Positions 4,888 through 31,259 of a DNA stretch of 60,289 nucleotides are shown in pieces (within the stretch, counting starts at the first letter, position 1; each line of letters opens with the position of its first letter). Origin of the DNA: Candidatus Dormiibacterota bacterium. Its GTDB lineage: Bacteria; Chloroflexota; Dormibacteria; Dormibacterales; Dormibacteraceae. The notes beneath the pieces are model-generated. The model searched no databases. It had not been told where the DNA came from and saw only the letters and a list, made by a program, of their open reading frames with translations. Location of the stretch: the NCBI GenBank assembly GCA_003151935.1, contig PLYZ01000075.1, positions 1-60,289 of the forward strand. Reading direction: 5' to 3'. Position numbers and translations under genes: made by a program.

Positions 4888-6051
4888 GTGAGCCCTACGC
4901 CCAGGCTGGTTGGCGCGCTCGCCCTGGCCGCGGTGATCGAGTACTACGGCGCGAGCTCTGAGGTCCCGTGGCTCTTTTTGCTCGCGAGCTGGATCGCAGC
5001 GCTCTGCGCCGTCTCGCTCATCTTCGCGCTGTGGAACCGCGCCGGCCTCCGCCTGCACCTGAGCGTCCGCGGCGCGAGCGCCGCTCCCGGCTCGCCCGCC
5101 GGAGACCTGCCCACGCACCTGATGCGCAACGCGCCGCTGCCTGAGCCGATCTTCGAGGGCGACGCTCTTTCAATGGAGATTGGTCTGGACACGACAGGTG
5201 CGGCACGGGGCCCAGCCCGCCTGGTCGGCTTCATCGGCTCGCAGGAGATCAGCGCCGCCACCGGGCTGGTGCCGAGATCGGGTTGGAGGCAGGGGGTCGA
5301 GCTGCGAGGGCTTCGCCGGGGACCGGTCGACGCACGCGCATGGGTGCTGGAGTCGAGCGACTTCGCCGGCTTATTCCGCAGCCGGCGCGCGAACCCCGAC
5401 GCCGAGGTCGCGCTCGTGCTCCCTCGGGTTACCTCCCTGGCCGCCCGGCCGCAGGCTCGGGAGCTCGAGGCGAGTGTGGCAGCGCCGCGCGCTGGGTCCG
5501 GCACCGAGATGTTCGGTGTGCGCGAGTACCGCCCGGGGGATTCGTTGCGCAGGATCCACTGGCGCTCGAGTGCCCGGCACGGAGAGCTCGTCGTGCGCGA
5601 GTACGAGCCGCCCGGCATTCAGACGCTAGGCATTTTCTGCGACCCCGGCCCGGCCAACTCTGAGGTCGCTGACCAGGTCGCGCGCCTCGCCGCCTCAGAA
5701 GCGTGGGATTGCATCCGCAATGGCGGCCGGGTGATGTTGTGGGGGCCCGGCCTCACGGCGAGCGAACCCGGTGAGGCACGCTCGCTATGGGCGGCGCTCG
5801 AGTGGCTCGCGCGCTACCCGACCCGAGCCGCAGGCGGCCAGGATGCGGATCCGCCGAGGGTGACTGAGGCGGTGGCCGTCACCGGCGGCGCCCACCCCGA
5901 GGTCGTCGAAGCGCTCGAGATGGTGCGGCGTCGCGGAGGGATGGTCCGCGCCTGGGTGGTTGGAGACGCCGGGCGCGCGCAGGGCGCAATCGAAAAGTTC
6001 ATGGATCTGGACGGCCCGGTCGAGCATGTCGGTACGGAATGGCCGCTTTGA
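4888..6051 (+). CDS. DUF58 domain-containing membrane protein
   Basis: This 387-residue protein starts with a hydrophobic hairpin (about residues 5-50: [12 protein letters not shown], then [20 protein letters not shown]). The DUF58 signature follows near residues 205-250 ([31 protein letters not shown] in the sequence order [19 protein letters not shown]). DUF58 proteins are usually the partner of a MoxR ATPase, as here, and have a VWA-like region after the motif. The biochemical role is not established. The GTG start is preceded by GGGGAGGT from repeat A. The 3' end overlaps the transglutaminase gene by 13 nt, so the trio is very likely one operon. Confidence 0.85.
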
Positions 6052-8045
6052 AGCTCCGGCTGCCGGCCTCGCCGGTCGAGAACTCCCTCGAAGGGCGGGC
6101 GTTCGTCTTCTCGGGCTTCTGCGTCGCGGTGCTCGCGATCGTGCTCTACGGGCAGGATTACGTTGTGCCGGCGGCCGGCGTCGCGGCGACGGCAATCGGC
6201 CACGTCGTCAGCTACCTCGGAAGAGCGCGCAAACGCAGCATGCTCGGCCAGGCGCTGCTCGCTTCCCTGGTGTTTGCGGGCCTGGCTTACTTCCTCGCCG
6301 ACTCGGTCCTGGCGCTCTTCGGAGGAGTGCTGCCGCAGGCGAACTTCGCCATCGCGCTCGTCGCAGTGACGAGCTTCGACCTCAAGACCCGCCGCAACTG
6401 CTATTCGAGCCTCTGGATCAGCCTGGCCATCCTCTACCTCGCTGCGGTTTACGCCTGGGACTATCCGTTCGGGATCCTCGTCGGGCTCTGGGCCGTGTGC
6501 CTGGCGGGTTTCTGGGTGGCGTCTCACCTGCGCCGGATGGGGGCCCGGCTGAGCGCTCCACCGGCGGCGCTGGCGGCGGTGGTGCTTGGCACGCTCGCGG
6601 TAGGTCTTGCCGGGTTCGTGCTCATCCCGCAGCCGACCTCGCTGGCGCCCAGTCCGGTGGTGGTCTCCCTGCCCAACTTCGTGAGCTTCAAAGGCGAGCT
6701 CGAGAACCCGGCCCTGCCGCTGGTGCAGCTGAGCGGCGACCCGTCGGGCGCGACGAGCACCATCGACCTCCACTACCGCGGCCGGCTCGGAGATTCGCCC
6801 GTGATGTACGTGAGAACCGGTGCGCCGGCCTACTGGCGCGGACTCGTCTTCGATACCTATCAGGGCGGGGTGTGGACAACGTCCAAACGTGGGTTCCTGG
6901 AGATGCAGCCGTACATCCCGCCGCGCTTGCTTCCACCCGCCCCGCCCAACAACCTCGGCACCTTCGTGCAGGTCTTCCGCGTCCTGCGGCCCCTGCCGGG
7001 TGTGATTAACGCCGCCTATCCGATCCAGAGCCTCTACGCACCGGTCACGTCGCTGCGCGAAGACTCCTACGGGACCTTTTTCACGCCGGACCTGTTGCAG
7101 CCTGGCCAGACCTACAGCGTCGTTTCCTACCTGCCCAACCTGACGGCGAACGAGCTCAAGAACGAGCCGGCCGCAAACGCTGCGCAGTTCATTGACCCCA
7201 TCTACCTCGACGACGGCGCGCTGTCGCAGCAGGCGCGCAGCCTGGCACTCACGGCGGTAGGCGGCCACACCGCGACCGAGTTCGACGAGGTGATGGCGCT
7301 GACCAACTACCTGCAGACGAATTTCCGCTACTCGCAGCAGCTTGGGCACGTTCCGGCGGGACGCGACCCGGTCGACTGGTTCCTGTTCGACGTCAAGATC
7401 GGCTACTGCGAGCAGTTCGCCACCGCCGAGACCTTGATGCTGCGCAGCCTCGGCATCCCCGCCCGGCTTGCCACCGGGTACTCCACGGGCACCTACGACC
7501 CCGTGCTCGACCAGTCGGTCGTTCGCGAGCACGACGCGCATGCCTGGGTCGAGGTGTGGTTTCCCAGCCACGGATGGGTGCCGGTCGACCCTTCGCCCGG
7601 CTTCTCAGCGCTGGCCGCGACGCAGTTCCCGTCGCACTGGGCGGCGGGAGGGATCGCGCGTCTCATACCTCACCTCGAGATCGGCGCGCCGCTGGGCGCG
7701 ATTGGCTCGCTTGGGCTGGTGGCGGTGATCCCGGTGGCGGTCGCAATCGCGGTGCTGGTGGTATTCGCCTGGGCCTGGCTGCGCACCCGGCGCAGGAGGG
7801 GAAGGGGAGGGACGAAAGCGGGACCCTGCGAATCGGAGCTGCTCCGTCTGTACGAGCGCGTCCAGAGAAAGCTTGGACGCCGCCGCGCGCCGCCAGAAAC
7901 GCCCCTGGAATATCTGAGTGGTGCGAGCCCTGGACCGGTGCTGGGGGTGCTTGAACAAGTCACGGACGCTGTCAATGAGGGCGCCTATGCGGGCCGCTGG
8001 CCGGACCCTAACGTGGTGCGCGGGCTCGCGGACCGCTTATCCTGA
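6039..8045 (+). CDS. TgpA-like membrane transglutaminase
   Basis: This 668-residue protein has several membrane segments in the first ~200 residues, an extracytoplasmic region, a transglutaminase-like core, and a late membrane segment (about 555-580: LGLVAVIPVAVAIAVLVVFAW), followed by a cytoplasmic Arg-rich tail. The papain-like triad is visible: Cys at about 457 (GYCEQFA), His at about 501 (DAHAWVE) and Asp at about 517 (WVPVDPSPG). This matches the TgpA/DUF3488-DUF4129 group, periplasmic or extracytoplasmic enzymes normally found next to MoxR and DUF58. The substrate is unknown. ATG 6039 overlaps the DUF58 gene. Confidence 0.88.
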   Translation: MAALKLRLPASPVENSLEGRAFVFSGFCVAVLAIVLYGQDYVVPAAGVAATAIGHVVSYLGRARKRSMLGQALLASLVFAGLAYFLADSVLALFGGVLPQANFAIALVAVTSFDLKTRRNCYSSLWISLAILYLAAVYAWDYPFGILVGLWAVCLAGFWVASHLRRMGARLSAPPAALAAVVLGTLAVGLAGFVLIPQPTSLAPSPVVVSLPNFVSFKGELENPALPLVQLSGDPSGATSTIDLHYRGRLGDSPVMYVRTGAPAYWRGLVFDTYQGGVWTTSKRGFLEMQPYIPPRLLPPAPPNNLGTFVQVFRVLRPLPGVINAAYPIQSLYAPVTSLREDSYGTFFTPDLLQPGQTYSVVSYLPNLTANELKNEPAANAAQFIDPIYLDDGALSQQARSLALTAVGGHTATEFDEVMALTNYLQTNFRYSQQLGHVPAGRDPVDWFLFDVKIGYCEQFATAETLMLRSLGIPARLATGYSTGTYDPVLDQSVVREHDAHAWVEVWFPSHGWVPVDPSPGFSALAATQFPSHWAAGGIARLIPHLEIGAPLGAIGSLGLVAVIPVAVAIAVLVVFAWAWLRTRRRRGRGGTKAGPCESELLRLYERVQRKLGRRRAPPETPLEYLSGASPGPVLGVLEQVTDAVNEGAYAGRWPDPNVVRGLADRLS

Positions 8046-8052
8046 CCCGCCG
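8038..8052 (+). promoter_or_regulatory. Putative leaderless promoter of pepF
   Basis: TATCCT (8038-8043) is followed by 8 nt and the GTG start at 8052. It overlaps the last codons of the transglutaminase gene (stop at 8045). No Shine-Dalgarno is seen. Confidence 0.45.
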
Positions 8053-9854
8053 TGGCCAAAGTCTTGAAGCAAACGGGTGCAGAGTCGGTTCGATGGGATC
8101 TCAGCGACCTCTACGCATCGCCGACTGACCCCGCGCTCGAGGCGACTCTCGCCCGAGCGCTGGAGCGCGCGAAGGATTTCGAAGCCGAATACAAGGGCAA
8201 GGTCGCGACCGTCGAGCCGCACGAGTTCGCGGCGATGATGCGACAGCTCGAGCAGAACGAGGAGGAGGCGGCGAAGCCGGAGGTCTACGCGTACCTGCTG
8301 CACAGCCAGAACACGCAGGAACCGGCCGCGGGAAGGGTCCTGGCCAGGGTGCGCGAAGCCGCCGCGGAGCGAGGCAGTCATGGCGTCTTCTTCTCGCTCG
8401 AGCTGGCTCAGGTCACCGACGAGCAGGCGGCCAAGCTCTACGCGCACCCCGACTCGTCTCGCTATCGCCACACGATCGAGGAGGCGCGCAAGTTCCGCCC
8501 GCATCAGCTGTCGGAGCCCGAGGAGCGTGTCCTGACGGACTTCAGCCCGGTCGGAAACTCCGCCTGGACCCGCCTGTTCGAGGAGCTGTGCTCCGGCGTC
8601 CGGGTGGAGCTGGACGGCAGGCAGCTCGCGCTCGAGGAGGCCTTGACCCGGCTTCGCGAGCCGGACCGCGAGATGCGAGTCCGCGCCAGTCACGCCATCA
8701 CAGGCGCGCTTGGGCATGACATTCGGACGCGCGGCTACATCTTCAATGTCATCCTGCAGGAGAAGGCGATAGACGACCGGCTCCGTCACTTCCCGTCGTG
8801 GATCTCGTCGCGGAACCTCGCGAACGAGACGTCGGACGAGGCGGTGCAGGCGCTCGTTGACGCTGTCACGGGCCGTTACGACATTTGCGTTCGCTACTAC
8901 CGGGTGAAGAAGCAGCTGCTCGGGGTCGGCGAGCTCCACGAGTGGGACCGCTACGCTCCGATCAACCAGGTGACCCGCGACCTCTCCTGGGACGACGCCA
9001 AAGAGCTCGTGCTGGGCTCGTTTCAGCGTTTTTCGAAGCGCACGGGAGTCCTGGTAGAGGACTTCTTCAACCACGGCTGGATCGACGCACCGGTCATTCC
9101 GGGCAAGGCAGGCGGGGCGTACTGCATGCCCGTGACGCCTCGCCACCATCCCTACGTGATGCTCAACTTCACGGGCAAGCTGCGAGACGCGCTGACTTTG
9201 GCGCATGAGCTGGGTCATGGCCTGCACGACCGTCTTGCCTCGAAGCAGCACATCTTCGACTTCCACCCGCCTCTGACCCTCGCGGAGACGGCGTCCGTCT
9301 TCGGTGAAGCGCTGACCTTCGACCGCATCATGGCCGAGGAGAAAGACCCGAAGATCCGGCTGGCCATGCTCTGCAGCCAGGTCGAGGACGCCTTCTCGAC
9401 GGTCTTCCGCCAGGTCGCCTTCAACCGCTACGAGGACGCCTGCCACACGGCTCGCCGGACCGAGGGCGAGCTGGCGGTCGAGCAGCTTGGCGAGATCTAC
9501 CAGGCCAAGCTGCAGCCGATGTTCGGCGACGCGCTCACGCTCACCGAAGAGCACAAGGTTTGGTGGAGTTACATCGAGCACTTCCTGCATACGCCGGGGT
9601 ACGTATACGCGTACGCGTTCGGAAATCTCCTCGCGCTGTCCGTCTATCACCGCTATCTCGAGAGTGGTCCGGAGTTCGTGGACGAATACCTGGAGTTTCT
9701 GGCGGCCGGCGGATCGACCCGGCCGGACGAGCTCGTGCGGCGCATCGGGATGGACATCACCGACCCGGGTTTCTGGGACTCGGGGTTGAAGATCCTCGAC
9801 GGAATGGTGGGCGAGATCGAGCGCCTGGCCGGGGCGTCCTCAGCGGACCGATAG
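8052..9854 (+). CDS. pepF: Oligoendopeptidase F (M3 family zinc metallopeptidase)
   Basis: This 600-residue protein has the M3 active-site motif HELGH at residues 385-389 within LTLAHELGHGLHD, and the downstream ETASVFGEAL segment that supplies the third zinc ligand (Glu). Length and layout fit the PepF/M3B family, cytoplasmic enzymes that cut short peptides. The N-terminal half is helical, as expected for the channel-forming part. The GTG start follows a TATCCT box by 8 nt. The gene lies alone between the MoxR trio and the pentose phosphate operon. Confidence 0.92.
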   Translation: MAKVLKQTGAESVRWDLSDLYASPTDPALEATLARALERAKDFEAEYKGKVATVEPHEFAAMMRQLEQNEEEAAKPEVYAYLLHSQNTQEPAAGRVLARVREAAAERGSHGVFFSLELAQVTDEQAAKLYAHPDSSRYRHTIEEARKFRPHQLSEPEERVLTDFSPVGNSAWTRLFEELCSGVRVELDGRQLALEEALTRLREPDREMRVRASHAITGALGHDIRTRGYIFNVILQEKAIDDRLRHFPSWISSRNLANETSDEAVQALVDAVTGRYDICVRYYRVKKQLLGVGELHEWDRYAPINQVTRDLSWDDAKELVLGSFQRFSKRTGVLVEDFFNHGWIDAPVIPGKAGGAYCMPVTPRHHPYVMLNFTGKLRDALTLAHELGHGLHDRLASKQHIFDFHPPLTLAETASVFGEALTFDRIMAEEKDPKIRLAMLCSQVEDAFSTVFRQVAFNRYEDACHTARRTEGELAVEQLGEIYQAKLQPMFGDALTLTEEHKVWWSYIEHFLHTPGYVYAYAFGNLLALSVYHRYLESGPEFVDEYLEFLAAGGSTRPDELVRRIGMDITDPGFWDSGLKILDGMVGEIERLAGASSADR

Positions 9855-25172: not shown

Positions 25173-27680
<2,508 letters not shown>

Positions 27681-27704
27681 GTTGTTGTGTATCTCGTCAG
27701 TGCT

Positions 27705-29891
27705 TCACGCGCAGCTGTCGGCGCCCAGCATCAGCGGCGCTGAGGCCGCGACTCCGGGCTGCTGCGCCACCGCGACCAGCGCACCGGACTTCACACCACT
27801 CGGGATGCTAACCGGCCATTTATCAGTGGGGATCACGACCGTGTAGCCCGGCGGCGTGTAGGCGTTCGGCCCGGGCAGGTCTGTGGTCGTGCCCGTGCAG
27901 CGGTCGAAGAACTTGAGGATGTAGGCGACCGGAACCTTCTGCGGCGCGGAGAAATAGATGCCCACCTCTACGTGGCAAGAGCTCAGGTCGCATGCGGTTG
28001 CCGTCTCCGCCGGGTTGCCGCCGCCGATGTTGCACGGCGTGTCCGTGCTGCAGATGAGCACCTTCGTGATCAGGCCGGCGCTGGCCGGGCCGAAGTTCGG
28101 CACCGCGAGCGGAAGCTGGGTGGTCGGTGTGGGGCTCGACTTCGGACTTGTCTTTGGCGACGTCTTGGGCGATGTCGTCGCGCCGGGTGAATGGGTCGCG
28201 CCCGCGGTCGACGACCCGCCACGGTGGGTCGCGATGAAGCCCCCGGTGCCAAGCAAGAGGATGAGCACGATGGCGATGATCGCCGGGACCAGCCATCGCG
28301 GTCGATCGGACGGGCCCGAGGGCGTACGCGCCACGGCGGGCCTGCGGGCAGGCATCGGGGCGGGCATCGGGGCGGGAGCCCGAAACGGGTTCGGGGCCGG
28401 CGCAACCGGGGCCGCAGCGGCGGCGAAGGGTGCGGCAGCCGCGGCCACCGGCTCCGTAGGAGTTGGAGTTCCGGATGGGGGCGTGTAGGCCGCCGGCGAG
28501 GTGGGCGCCGCTTCGAGGGCGCCCGGCACCCACGGCGGTGGCGTGGCCGACGTGTCTACCTTCCCTGGTGTCCAGACCGGCGCCTCGACCGGCGTCCACG
28601 TCGACGTTTGCGCAGGGGCCGGCGTCGGAATGGTGGGGACGACTGGAGGTGGGGAAGGAGCCGGCGGTGCGGCCGCCGGTGGATTCGTGCTCATGGCGGG
28701 CGGTGGCGGGGCAGTCGCGAAAGGGGATTGAGGCGCTGCCGGGATGAACAGGGCGGGAGTGGGCGGGACCGTCTCGCGGGCGGGCGCGGGTGGGTTGGTC
28801 GTGGTGGGCAGCGGAGCCGGCGGGATCACCGCCGGAGCCTTTGGCGCCTCGTAAGGGGCTGGGGTCCTGGGAGGCGCCTCGGACCACGTGGGAACCGGGC
28901 GGGCCTCCTGAGGCAGCGGCGGCGGCGCAGGAACGGCCGGCGCCGGAGCCGGTGCATAGGTCGGCGCAGGGATCGACGGATAGGTCTGCAACGAGCGCGC
29001 CGGGGCGTCGTAGGAGGCCGGCGCCCGGAACGGCGTCTCGTCCCGGGGCACGGGCGGCACGAAAGGTGCCGGGGCTGGCGGCGCAGGCGGCTGAGATGCG
29101 GCCGCTGCGGCGGCGGCGGCGGCGGCGGCTGCTGCCGCTCCGGGCAGGAACGGTGTGACGCCGGGTGTCTCGCGCCCGCCTGCCCTCGTCGCCAACTCGG
29201 CCTGGGCCGCCATCGCCCGGTCTGGTGCCAGCATCGCCGAAGCCATCTCACGGAGGGCGCCCTGAGCGCGGTCGGCCGCCGGTCCCATGGCGCCGCTCGC
29301 CATCGATCGCATCGTCACGACGAGGCCAGGAGGAATGTTGGGCGGCGCGGGAGCCCCGGCCGGGTCGACCCCAAACGCGGCGCAAACCGCCATGCCGCAG
29401 GACCGCACGTCGGCCCGGAGGTCGCTCTGCGAAGGAGCCCCGCGCACGGCGGCGGCGGGGTGGCCCGCGAGCCTCACTTCACCGTTTCCGGTGACGCGAA
29501 TCGCGGAAGCGCCGAAGCCTCCCATCGCGATGCCGGCCTCATGCAGGGCCGCCACGCCGGACAGAACCGAGGCGCCGAGCGCGGCAGCCGCCGGCGGGGT
29601 GAGCGGACCGCGTGACAGGAGCGTCGAGAGCGGCGTGCCCTCGTTGGGCTCGACCGCGACCCAGATTCCGTTAGGGTCCGTGCCCCACGCGAGGACAGGC
29701 GAGAGCGAGGGATGCCTGTGTTCAGCCAGCCTTTGAATCCGCGGGATCGCGGCGGCAGCTTCTGCCGGCGGCACGGGAATCTCGTGGACGACGGCCGGCT
29801 TGCCGTTCTTGAGCACGGCCTTCCACCCCTGGCCCGCTCCAGGTCCCACCAGCTCGATCAGCTTCGGCTTGGGTTCGCTCTCCGCCATCAC
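27705..29891 (-). CDS. Membrane pseudokinase-like protein with Ala/Pro-rich linker and extracytoplasmic domain
   Basis: This 728-residue protein has four parts. Residues ~20-230 look like a protein kinase fold with lost catalytic motifs: GMAVCAAFGVDP and SVLSGVAALHEAGIAMGG are kinase-like, but the HRD Asp and DFG are absent, and the expected catalytic loop reads GGFGASAIRVTGNGEVRLAG. Next come a run of about 15 alanines (near residue 250) and about 250 residues of Pro/Ala-rich linker. One membrane helix (about residues 540-562, WLVPAIIAIVLILLLGTGGFIA) follows, then a Ser/Thr/Pro stalk. The last ~130 residues carry at least six cysteines and are probably outside the cell. It could be a sensor or scaffold related to PknB-type receptors or MviN-like pseudokinases. 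Function unknown. GTG 29891 is 6 nt after a TACCAT box. Confidence 0.7.
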   Translation of the reverse strand: MMAESEPKPKLIELVGPGAGQGWKAVLKNGKPAVVHEIPVPPAEAAAAIPRIQRLAEHRHPSLSPVLAWGTDPNGIWVAVEPNEGTPLSTLLSRGPLTPPAAAALGASVLSGVAALHEAGIAMGGFGASAIRVTGNGEVRLAGHPAAAVRGAPSQSDLRADVRSCGMAVCAAFGVDPAGAPAPPNIPPGLVVTMRSMASGAMGPAADRAQGALREMASAMLAPDRAMAAQAELATRAGGRETPGVTPFLPGAAAAAAAAAAAAAASQPPAPPAPAPFVPPVPRDETPFRAPASYDAPARSLQTYPSIPAPTYAPAPAPAVPAPPPLPQEARPVPTWSEAPPRTPAPYEAPKAPAVIPPAPLPTTTNPPAPARETVPPTPALFIPAAPQSPFATAPPPPAMSTNPPAAAPPAPSPPPVVPTIPTPAPAQTSTWTPVEAPVWTPGKVDTSATPPPWVPGALEAAPTSPAAYTPPSGTPTPTEPVAAAAAPFAAAAAPVAPAPNPFRAPAPMPAPMPARRPAVARTPSGPSDRPRWLVPAIIAIVLILLLGTGGFIATHRGGSSTAGATHSPGATTSPKTSPKTSPKSSPTPTTQLPLAVPNFGPASAGLITKVLICSTDTPCNIGGGNPAETATACDLSSCHVEVGIYFSAPQKVPVAYILKFFDRCTGTTTDLPGPNAYTPPGYTVVIPTDKWPVSIPSGVKSGALVAVAQQPGVAASAPLMLGADSCA

Positions 29892-29915: not shown

Positions 29916-30161
29916 GTGGCATATGTGATCGTGCAGCCGTGTGTTGGCGTCAAAGACGCCTCATGCGTGGAGGTCTGTCCGGTGGACTGCATTCACACCG
30001 ACGACGCTGCCACGATGTATTACATCGACCCCGACGAGTGCATCGACTGCGGCGCATGCGTGGACCCGTGTCCCGTCGACGCGATTTTTCCTGAGGACGA
30101 GGTTCCGGAGCAGTGGCGCGATTACATCAAGATCAACGCCGACTATTTCAAAAACCGGTAG
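29916..30161 (+). CDS. fdxA: 7Fe ferredoxin (3Fe-4S / 4Fe-4S)
   Basis: This 81-residue protein has the FdxA layout: an N-terminal cluster with CVGVKDASCVEVCPVDC and a second, CIDCGACVDPCPVDAI, supplying a [3Fe-4S] and a [4Fe-4S] cluster. The acidic C-terminal part (EDEVPEQW...) is typical. It carries low-potential electrons in the cytoplasm. GTG 29916 follows TACCCT by 8 nt; a longer reading into the promoter is not supported. It is 6 nt upstream of the isocitrate dehydrogenase gene, so the two are probably co-transcribed, though a direct electron link is not implied for an NAD(P) enzyme. Confidence 0.93.
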   Translation: MAYVIVQPCVGVKDASCVEVCPVDCIHTDDAATMYYIDPDECIDCGACVDPCPVDAIFPEDEVPEQWRDYIKINADYFKNR

Positions 30162-30167
30162 GTCCTG

Positions 30168-31259
30168 ATGGGTCGACATTCGGTCACTCTCGTACCCGGT
30201 GATGGCGTGGGTCCTGAGATCTGCGACGCCACCGTTCGCGTGCTGGAAGCCACTGGTGTCGAGTTCGACTGGGACGTCCAGCAGGCGGGCGCAGCGGCCA
30301 TCGCCGAATTCGGAACGCCGCTCCCGGAGCACGTGCTCGCCTCGATTCGCAAGAACAAGGTCGCGCTCAAAGGTCCTATTACGACGCCGATCGGCAGCGG
30401 GTTTCGAAGCGTCAACGTCGCGCTCCGTCTGGAGCTCGACCTTTTCGCTCTGGTTCGCCCGGTCAAGGCCTACAAGGGCGCGCGCAATCTGCGGGACGAC
30501 CTCGACTTCGTCATCGTGCGTGAGAACACAGAGGATCTTTACGCCGGCCTCGAGTTCGAGCGCGGCACGCCTGACTGCGACCACCTGATCACCGAGATTT
30601 CAGGCTTGCTTAAGAAAAAGATCCGGCCCGACAGCGGGCTGTCGATCAAGCCGATCTCAGTCAGCGGGACCGAGCGGATCGTGAAGTTCGCCTTCGAGTA
30701 CGCGCGCAAGAACAAGCGGCGCAAGGTTACGGCCGTGCACAAGGCGAACATCATGAAGCACACCGACGGGCTCTTCCTCGCCGTCGCGCGGCAGGTCGCG
30801 CAGCAGTATCCGGACATCGAGTTCGAAGACCGGATCGTCGACAACATGTGCATGCAGCTGGTGCTGCGACCCAAGGAATACGACATCCTCTGCTGCCCGA
30901 ACCTTTACGGAGACATAATCTCCGACCTCGGCGCGGGCATGATCGGCGGCCTCGGGCTCGCGCCGGGCGCCAACATCGGGACCAACGGCGCGGTGTTCGA
31001 GGCGACCCACGGGAGCGCGCCGAAGTACACGGGCCAGAACAAGGTGAACCCGATGGCGGTGATGCTGTCGGGCGTGCTCATGCTGCGTCACCTCGAGGAG
31101 GTGGCCGCCGCCGACGCGCTCGAAGCCGCGATCGCGCAGGTGATCGCTATCGGCAAGAACGTGACCTACGACCTCAAGGAAAAGCGCGGCGACATCACGG
31201 CGGTCGGAACCAGCCAGGTGGCGGACGCGGTCATCGCCCAGATGCAAGCGGGGGCTTGA
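30168..31259 (+). CDS. Isocitrate dehydrogenase (NAD-type; isocitrate/isopropylmalate family)
   Basis: This 363-residue beta-decarboxylating dehydrogenase has VTLVPGDGVGPEI, the substrate loop SVNVALRLELDLFALVRPVK, the ENTEDLYAGLE motif, catalytic Lys in VHKANIMKHTDGLFL and the Asp-rich metal site YGDIISDLGAGMIGGLG. The SxNVALR substrate loop and ENTEDLYAG indicate isocitrate rather than isopropylmalate. Size fits the short NAD-dependent class, which makes 2-oxoglutarate in the TCA cycle. An AGG sits before the ATG. A double copy of repeat B follows directly after its stop. Confidence 0.87.
   Translation: MGRHSVTLVPGDGVGPEICDATVRVLEATGVEFDWDVQQAGAAAIAEFGTPLPEHVLASIRKNKVALKGPITTPIGSGFRSVNVALRLELDLFALVRPVKAYKGARNLRDDLDFVIVRENTEDLYAGLEFERGTPDCDHLITEISGLLKKKIRPDSGLSIKPISVSGTERIVKFAFEYARKNKRRKVTAVHKANIMKHTDGLFLAVARQVAQQYPDIEFEDRIVDNMCMQLVLRPKEYDILCCPNLYGDIISDLGAGMIGGLGLAPGANIGTNGAVFEATHGSAPKYTGQNKVNPMAVMLSGVLMLRHLEEVAAADALEAAIAQVIAIGKNVTYDLKEKRGDITAVGTSQVADAVIAQMQAGA

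Follow-up and report, generated by a model that had tools for sequence, protein, structure and literature searches.

The window, the 60,289 nucleotides analysed here from contig PLYZ01000075.1 of a Candidatus Dormiibacterota bacterium, carries on its minus strand a gene encoding a receptor-like protein with a kinase-derived cytoplasmic domain (Table 1). The open reading frame (27705-29891) opens with a GTG that is followed directly by an ATG at 29888, and the start is best placed at this ATG because the close orthologues have M(A/P)ESEPKPK, or a near variant of it, as their first residues at the same point. From its N-terminus the protein is composed of a 240-residue kinase-derived domain, the sequence TPFLP, a run of 14 alanines, an arm rich in proline and alanine, one predicted transmembrane helix, and an outer domain. 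This is the layout described in an earlier, sequence-only reading of the same DNA, including the poly-Ala run and the single membrane helix, save that the linker, there put at 250 residues, is approximately 293 residues long (31% Pro, 25% Ala). Conserved neighbors in the window clade are divergently oriented genes for a ferredoxin and an isocitrate dehydrogenase; a D-Ala-D-Ala carboxypeptidase gene lies approximately 3.2 kb from the receptor gene.

Table 1. Coordinates of the receptor gene, its parts and its neighbors in the window, and of RodA-PBP2 fusion frames at related loci.
Feature	Position	Strand	Basis or remark
Pseudokinase receptor gene, 727 aa + stop	27705..29888	-	ORF and orthologues
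Pseudokinase domain, residues 1-240, activation segment deleted	29169..29888	-	Profile, model, motif alignment
Conserved T245-P-F-L-P249 motif directly after the C-lobe; candidate phospho-Thr/FHA site	29142..29156	-	Orthologue alignment
Poly-Ala run, 14 Ala, residues 251-264	29097..29138	-	
Pro/Ala-rich disordered linker, residues 241-533	28290..29168	-	
Single TM helix, residues ~534-552, preceded by conserved R-P-x-W-L-x-P	28233..28289	-	
Outer domain, residues 595-727, Cys-containing beta-sandwich	27708..28106	-	Profile, model
Aminopeptidase N (pepN), probable ATA start at 27690-27692	25173..27692	-	Separate from receptor
Divergent ferredoxin (29916-30161) and isocitrate/isopropylmalate dehydrogenase-family gene (30168-31259)	29916..31259	+	Syntenic across window clade
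RodA-PBP2 fusion ORFs	L117:6220-9282; L116:1-2412; L058 about 5718-8534	- (L117)	

On the single receptor sequence, the Pfam Pkinase model matches residues 47-120 at 13-15.7 bits, below its cut-off of 31.7. A profile made from an alignment of 39 relatives of the N-terminal domain retrieves solved kinases from the PDB, with PAK4 the best match (E 5.6e-18) and PknA, StkP, and PknE following at about 1e-12 to 1e-14. AlphaFold2, supplied with the same alignment, predicts a kinase fold (pLDDT 89.7, pTM 0.88), and the top Foldseek match to this model is PknA of Mycobacterium tuberculosis (E 9.6e-10, TM 0.69-0.71). Model and profile agree on a two-lobed, Hanks-type kinase fold, and the outcome named in advance as fatal to the kinase reading, an N-terminal domain of some other fold, did not occur. 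PADLOC matches to PD-T4-6 and mad6 were not taken as signs of a defence function, being generic kinase-domain matches.

While the fold points to a kinase, the residues required of an active Hanks-type enzyme (beta3 Lys, HRD Asp, and DFG Asp) are replaced by H35, G124, and G142, respectively. As read from an alignment with the six other kinase domains of the window genome, R50 occupies the position of the alphaC Glu, and the HRD and DFG columns read MGG (M122-G123-G124) and GHP (G142-H143-P144), so that the absence of both motifs, claimed from inspection of the letters, holds column by column. Additionally, the Gly-rich loop is altered, the catalytic-loop Asn is replaced by Ala or Ser (Ala in the window protein), and about 19 residues separate the DFG site from the alphaF Asp, as compared with about 40 in the active kinases of the same genome. 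Replacement of the beta3 Lys, the alphaC Glu, the HRD Asp, and the DFG Asp, together with deletion of the activation segment, is found in 30 of 30 distinct close orthologues. K23, H35, and H143 are nevertheless kept in the close orthologues that cover them, and the beta2 residue K23 recalls the placing of the WNK lysine; these three residues could line a pocket that binds a nucleotide or another ligand and carries out a different chemistry, as in SelO and SidJ, pseudokinases that gained new activities (PMC12599244). Such a repurposed catalyst is improbable, however, given that no acidic residue stands at the HRD or DFG site to hold a metal ion, and given the changes to the Gly-rich loop and the catalytic-loop Asn.

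Distant members of the family give what reads as a series from a Lys-bearing towards a fully blanked pocket. Specifically, two members from other genera of the window's family retain VAVK, HGSVHARN, and DHG (L057) or LAAK and DAG (L058), while a third, also of another genus, is intermediate with HGALLAEN and GHQ (L053). Among the six further kinase domains that the window genome encodes, L102 carries Arg at the position of the beta3 Lys and reads GFG at the DFG site, so this kinase may itself be impaired. Separately, a pseudokinase paralogue at L055:6835-7514 is split across two frames, either through an assembly error or as a decaying copy.

Close orthologues of the receptor are present in 29 of 42 genomes of the window's family, spanning six genera, and the frame is intact in nearly all of them. 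The same overall architecture recurs across the class Dormibacteria, the relatives being titled in their records as Candidatus Dormibacterota or Chloroflexi bacteria. Over 11 loci, mean identity to the window is 88.5% for the dead domain and 87.6% for the neighboring dehydrogenase, compared with 81.9% for the D-Ala-D-Ala carboxypeptidase and 70% for the receptor's own outer domain. Nei-Gojobori dN/dS values for the dead domain across the six genera range from 0.006 to 0.056, and those for the dehydrogenase from 0.034 to 0.079; the absolute values are rough, given the large synonymous divergence of some pairs, and what matters is how the genes of a given locus compare with one another. Judged by these measures, purifying selection on the receptor as a whole is strong, and the dead domain changes no faster than the neighboring isocitrate dehydrogenase. 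The loss of all catalytic motifs would suit a non-functional relic of a kinase, but this explanation deserves next to no credence because both the dN/dS values, which show that the receptor is not in decay, and the intact frames contradict it.

The strongest conservation within the kinase-derived domain falls in the C-lobe (residues 151-216), and this distribution bears upon another possibility, namely that an active membrane kinase binds the N-lobe of the dead domain and is switched on or off by it in response to a signal supplied by the outer domain. PknB-type kinases and MviN do form back-to-back dimers by way of the N-lobe (PMC12599244), and the window genome encodes active receptor-like kinases (L101 and L097) that could serve as partners. 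Allosteric pairing of this kind is nonetheless rather unlikely, since conservation peaks in the lobe opposite to the one required and no kinase gene adjoins the receptor gene in the window-clade loci examined.

The outer domain, which had been called unfamiliar and rich in cysteine, comprises 133 residues with six cysteines, four of them conserved across the family; in a profile of 34 outer-domain sequences, three cysteines are invariant and one nearly so. Structure prediction, proposed earlier for both end domains, yields a confident beta-sandwich in this case (pLDDT 94.5). The domain matches no Pfam family, the whole receptor has no NCBIfam match, and a search of PDB sequences with the outer-domain profile, the other check that had been suggested, returned nothing credible. 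Foldseek with the model gave no PDB match below E 0.001, the best being non-significant hits to Ig-like sandwiches (Asf1 and RhoGDI, best E 0.009). Among 400 genomes spread over the phylum, the domain occurs in class Dormibacteria only, with the exception of one probable contaminant in G264, a genome of another family with 8% contamination, where the matching ORF is short and lies close to the end of its contig. Taken together, these searches indicate a type of domain not yet described. Related pseudokinases at L055:1840-2559 and L056:4219-4965 bear a different outer domain, which is NTF2-like by eye and has no Pfam name.

Between the two folded ends, conservation is concentrated directly behind the C-lobe, where the tail follows the consensus RAGGR(E/D)xPx(I/V/A)TP(F/Y)(L/V)P. 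Of the 27 full-length orthologues, 26 carry T245 and every one has Leu or Val at +3; the motif is specific to the window clade. A threonine with an aliphatic residue at +3 suits recognition by FHA domains. Beyond TPFLP the linker is poorly conserved. The recurrent (F/W)(L/I/V)P motifs within it were considered as a conserved set and rejected, TPFLP alone being conserved while FIPA and WVPG occur in no sequences but the window and those closest to it. Elsewhere in the window genome (L093:2-2005), the gene of an FHA protein with a Pro/Ala-rich arm is followed by a PP2C phosphatase gene, and the two products may serve the kinases of the window genome as reader and eraser.

Downstream of the receptor gene, homology to pepN starts approximately 18 nt past the receptor stop, and about 12 nt separate that stop from the likely ATA start. 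Co-transcription of the two genes, raised in the sequence-only reading, is possible in the window, where they are adjacent on one strand, but does not generalize: in five genera (g1, g5, g10, g11, and g12) pepN comes next after the receptor and on the same strand, but not in the sixth, and in several g2 loci a convergent gene takes its place that appears reductase-like, an identification that is weak because the synteny query was in the wrong frame. The shared orientation in five genera is what would recommend a receptor that works together with the aminopeptidase, for example in peptide uptake or turnover. Yet the receptor persists at other examined loci without an adjacent pepN, and pepN evolves much faster, with dN/dS of 0.12-0.19 against about 0.03 for the receptor in the same pairs. 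Because the pepN neighbor is conserved in some genera only, PepN is probably not the receptor's partner, and a joint function is highly improbable. Readthrough of the TGA or fusion into pepN was likewise rejected, as the relation of the frames varies between loci and stops intervene in several.

A separate observation concerns the start of pepN itself. In 11 distinct loci from the window and related genomes, no ATG, GTG, or TTG lies between the in-frame stop and the conserved N-terminus NNLTR, while ATA or ATC is found one to seven codons upstream of NNLTR in 11 of 11 (27690-27707, minus strand, in the window). This pattern suggests that translation of pepN conservedly begins at AUA or AUC, possibly controlled by IF3; the GTC start of Streptomyces sigR offers a precedent for an unusual start codon (PMC5472188).

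Evidence regarding the cellular setting of the receptor comes from more distant relatives. Two sister families (f2 and f4) share the architecture of degenerate kinase domain, linker, transmembrane helix, and outer domain of the type found in the window, their N-terminal domains being distant from those of the window clade (E about 1e-9 to 1e-29). The receptor genes of both families adjoin mreB and an ORF encoding a RodA-PBP2 fusion, followed in f4 by a glucosaminidase-domain gene, and L058, the distant member within the window's own family, also adjoins a RodA-PBP2 ORF. It is mainly on account of these neighbors that the family is placed at the cell envelope. The fusion is natural, with RodA/FtsW (SEDS) domains and the dimerization and transpeptidase domains of a class B PBP in one ORF. 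The window genome, which is 99.6% complete, contains one SEDS gene and no mreB; therefore, the elongasome link seen in the sister families cannot hold unchanged there. In the genomes G000, G028, G025, G026, G027, G030, and G031, no MreB match was found beyond weak DnaK-like ones, and the four tested for SEDS genes (G000, G028, G025, and G030) have one each, suggesting from gene content that the elongation machinery was lost in several lineages of the window's family.

Among characterized systems, the closest likeness is to MviN (Rv3910) of M. tuberculosis, an ActPs3 pseudokinase of the Actinobacteria, whose pseudokinase, when phosphorylated in its tail by PknB, recruits FhaA, with consequences for peptidoglycan synthesis (PMC12599244; PMC11898655), although it is disputed in which direction FhaA acts (PMC11898655). 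Both proteins have lost the three motifs, lack the activation loop (the shortening noted above agrees with ActPs3 in this respect), and place a transmembrane helix before a small extracytoplasmic domain; moreover, where the MviN tail carries the PknB phosphosite, the receptor has its conserved threonine. MviN is fused to the MurJ lipid II flippase, whereas the receptor is unfused, and the sole MurJ-family match in the window genome is a separate flippase-like gene. The receptor further differs in its Pro/Ala arm of approximately 290 residues between domain and helix, in its phylum, and in an outer domain with no detected relation to that of MviN. ActPs3 is marked in addition by sequence constraints of its own, at the dimer interface and in the pocket fillers F724/W789. 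MviN does not appear in the 60 top PDB matches listed for the N-terminal profile, and the likeness is drawn from descriptions of the two proteins. PASTA kinases such as PknB and Stk1 share the topology of cytoplasmic kinase fold, linker, single transmembrane helix, and outer sensor domain, but the receptor lacks their catalytic residues and, in Pfam and NCBIfam searches, their PASTA repeats. EssB/YukC of type VIIb secretion is likewise a membrane-anchored pseudokinase scaffold with a reduced activation loop, from which the receptor differs in its long linker and beta-sandwich outer domain; it has no Pfam match to EssB/YukC (Pkinase only), and no secretion genes were seen around its gene. Finally, ActPs1, ActPs2, GLW, CP1, DYD, and DLHK are also bacterial Ser/Thr pseudokinases, several with a C-terminal transmembrane helix, whereas the receptor reads MGG, not GLW or HRN, at the HRD site and has no giant activation-loop insertion.

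The earlier proposal of a PknB-type receptor turned scaffold is supported in what concerns its kinase ancestry, its topology, the missing catalytic residues, and an outer domain for which no relatives are known, while the scaffold function is inferred by analogy. By that analogy, with a probability of roughly one half, the receptor would be a phospho-regulated envelope scaffold, signaling in the manner of the mycobacterial MviN pseudokinase/FhaA module. The dead kinase domain is held at the membrane by the single helix via its flexible arm. On the proposed model, the C-lobe surface would dock a cytoplasmic partner; one of the genome's six other kinases would phosphorylate T245, which an FHA protein would recognize; and the outer domain would report the state of the cell wall, such that the receptor would gate an envelope process, as the MviN pseudokinase and FhaA do. 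Counted against the envelope scaffold are the metabolic neighbors in the window clade (the carboxypeptidase gene nearby notwithstanding), the lack of mreB in the window genome, the confinement of the T245 motif to that clade, and the large distance of the sister-family N-terminal domains from those of the window clade. A bolder and less likely reading is a dead-kinase system that the Dormibacteria evolved on their own, in which the hyper-conserved C-lobe would form the hub of a phospho-Thr/FHA switch and the outer domain would sense the wall, the whole being kept even where mreB and rodA are missing.

Membrane pseudokinases are a known kind of bacterial protein; the literature searched yielded no account of the Dormibacteria family, of its outer domain, or of its spread through the class, and on kinases of Dormibacterota it returned nothing relevant. 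A 2025 review of bacterial pseudokinases lists seven families, none named from Chloroflexota, and the receptor probably adds a family outside these seven. It does so in a class of soil bacteria for which no signaling study was found, and it offers both visible intermediates between a Lys-bearing and a blanked pocket and, in T245, a concrete, testable site. The constraint on the dead domain, equal to that on an enzyme of central metabolism, argues strongly that it fulfills an important role without the usual catalysis.
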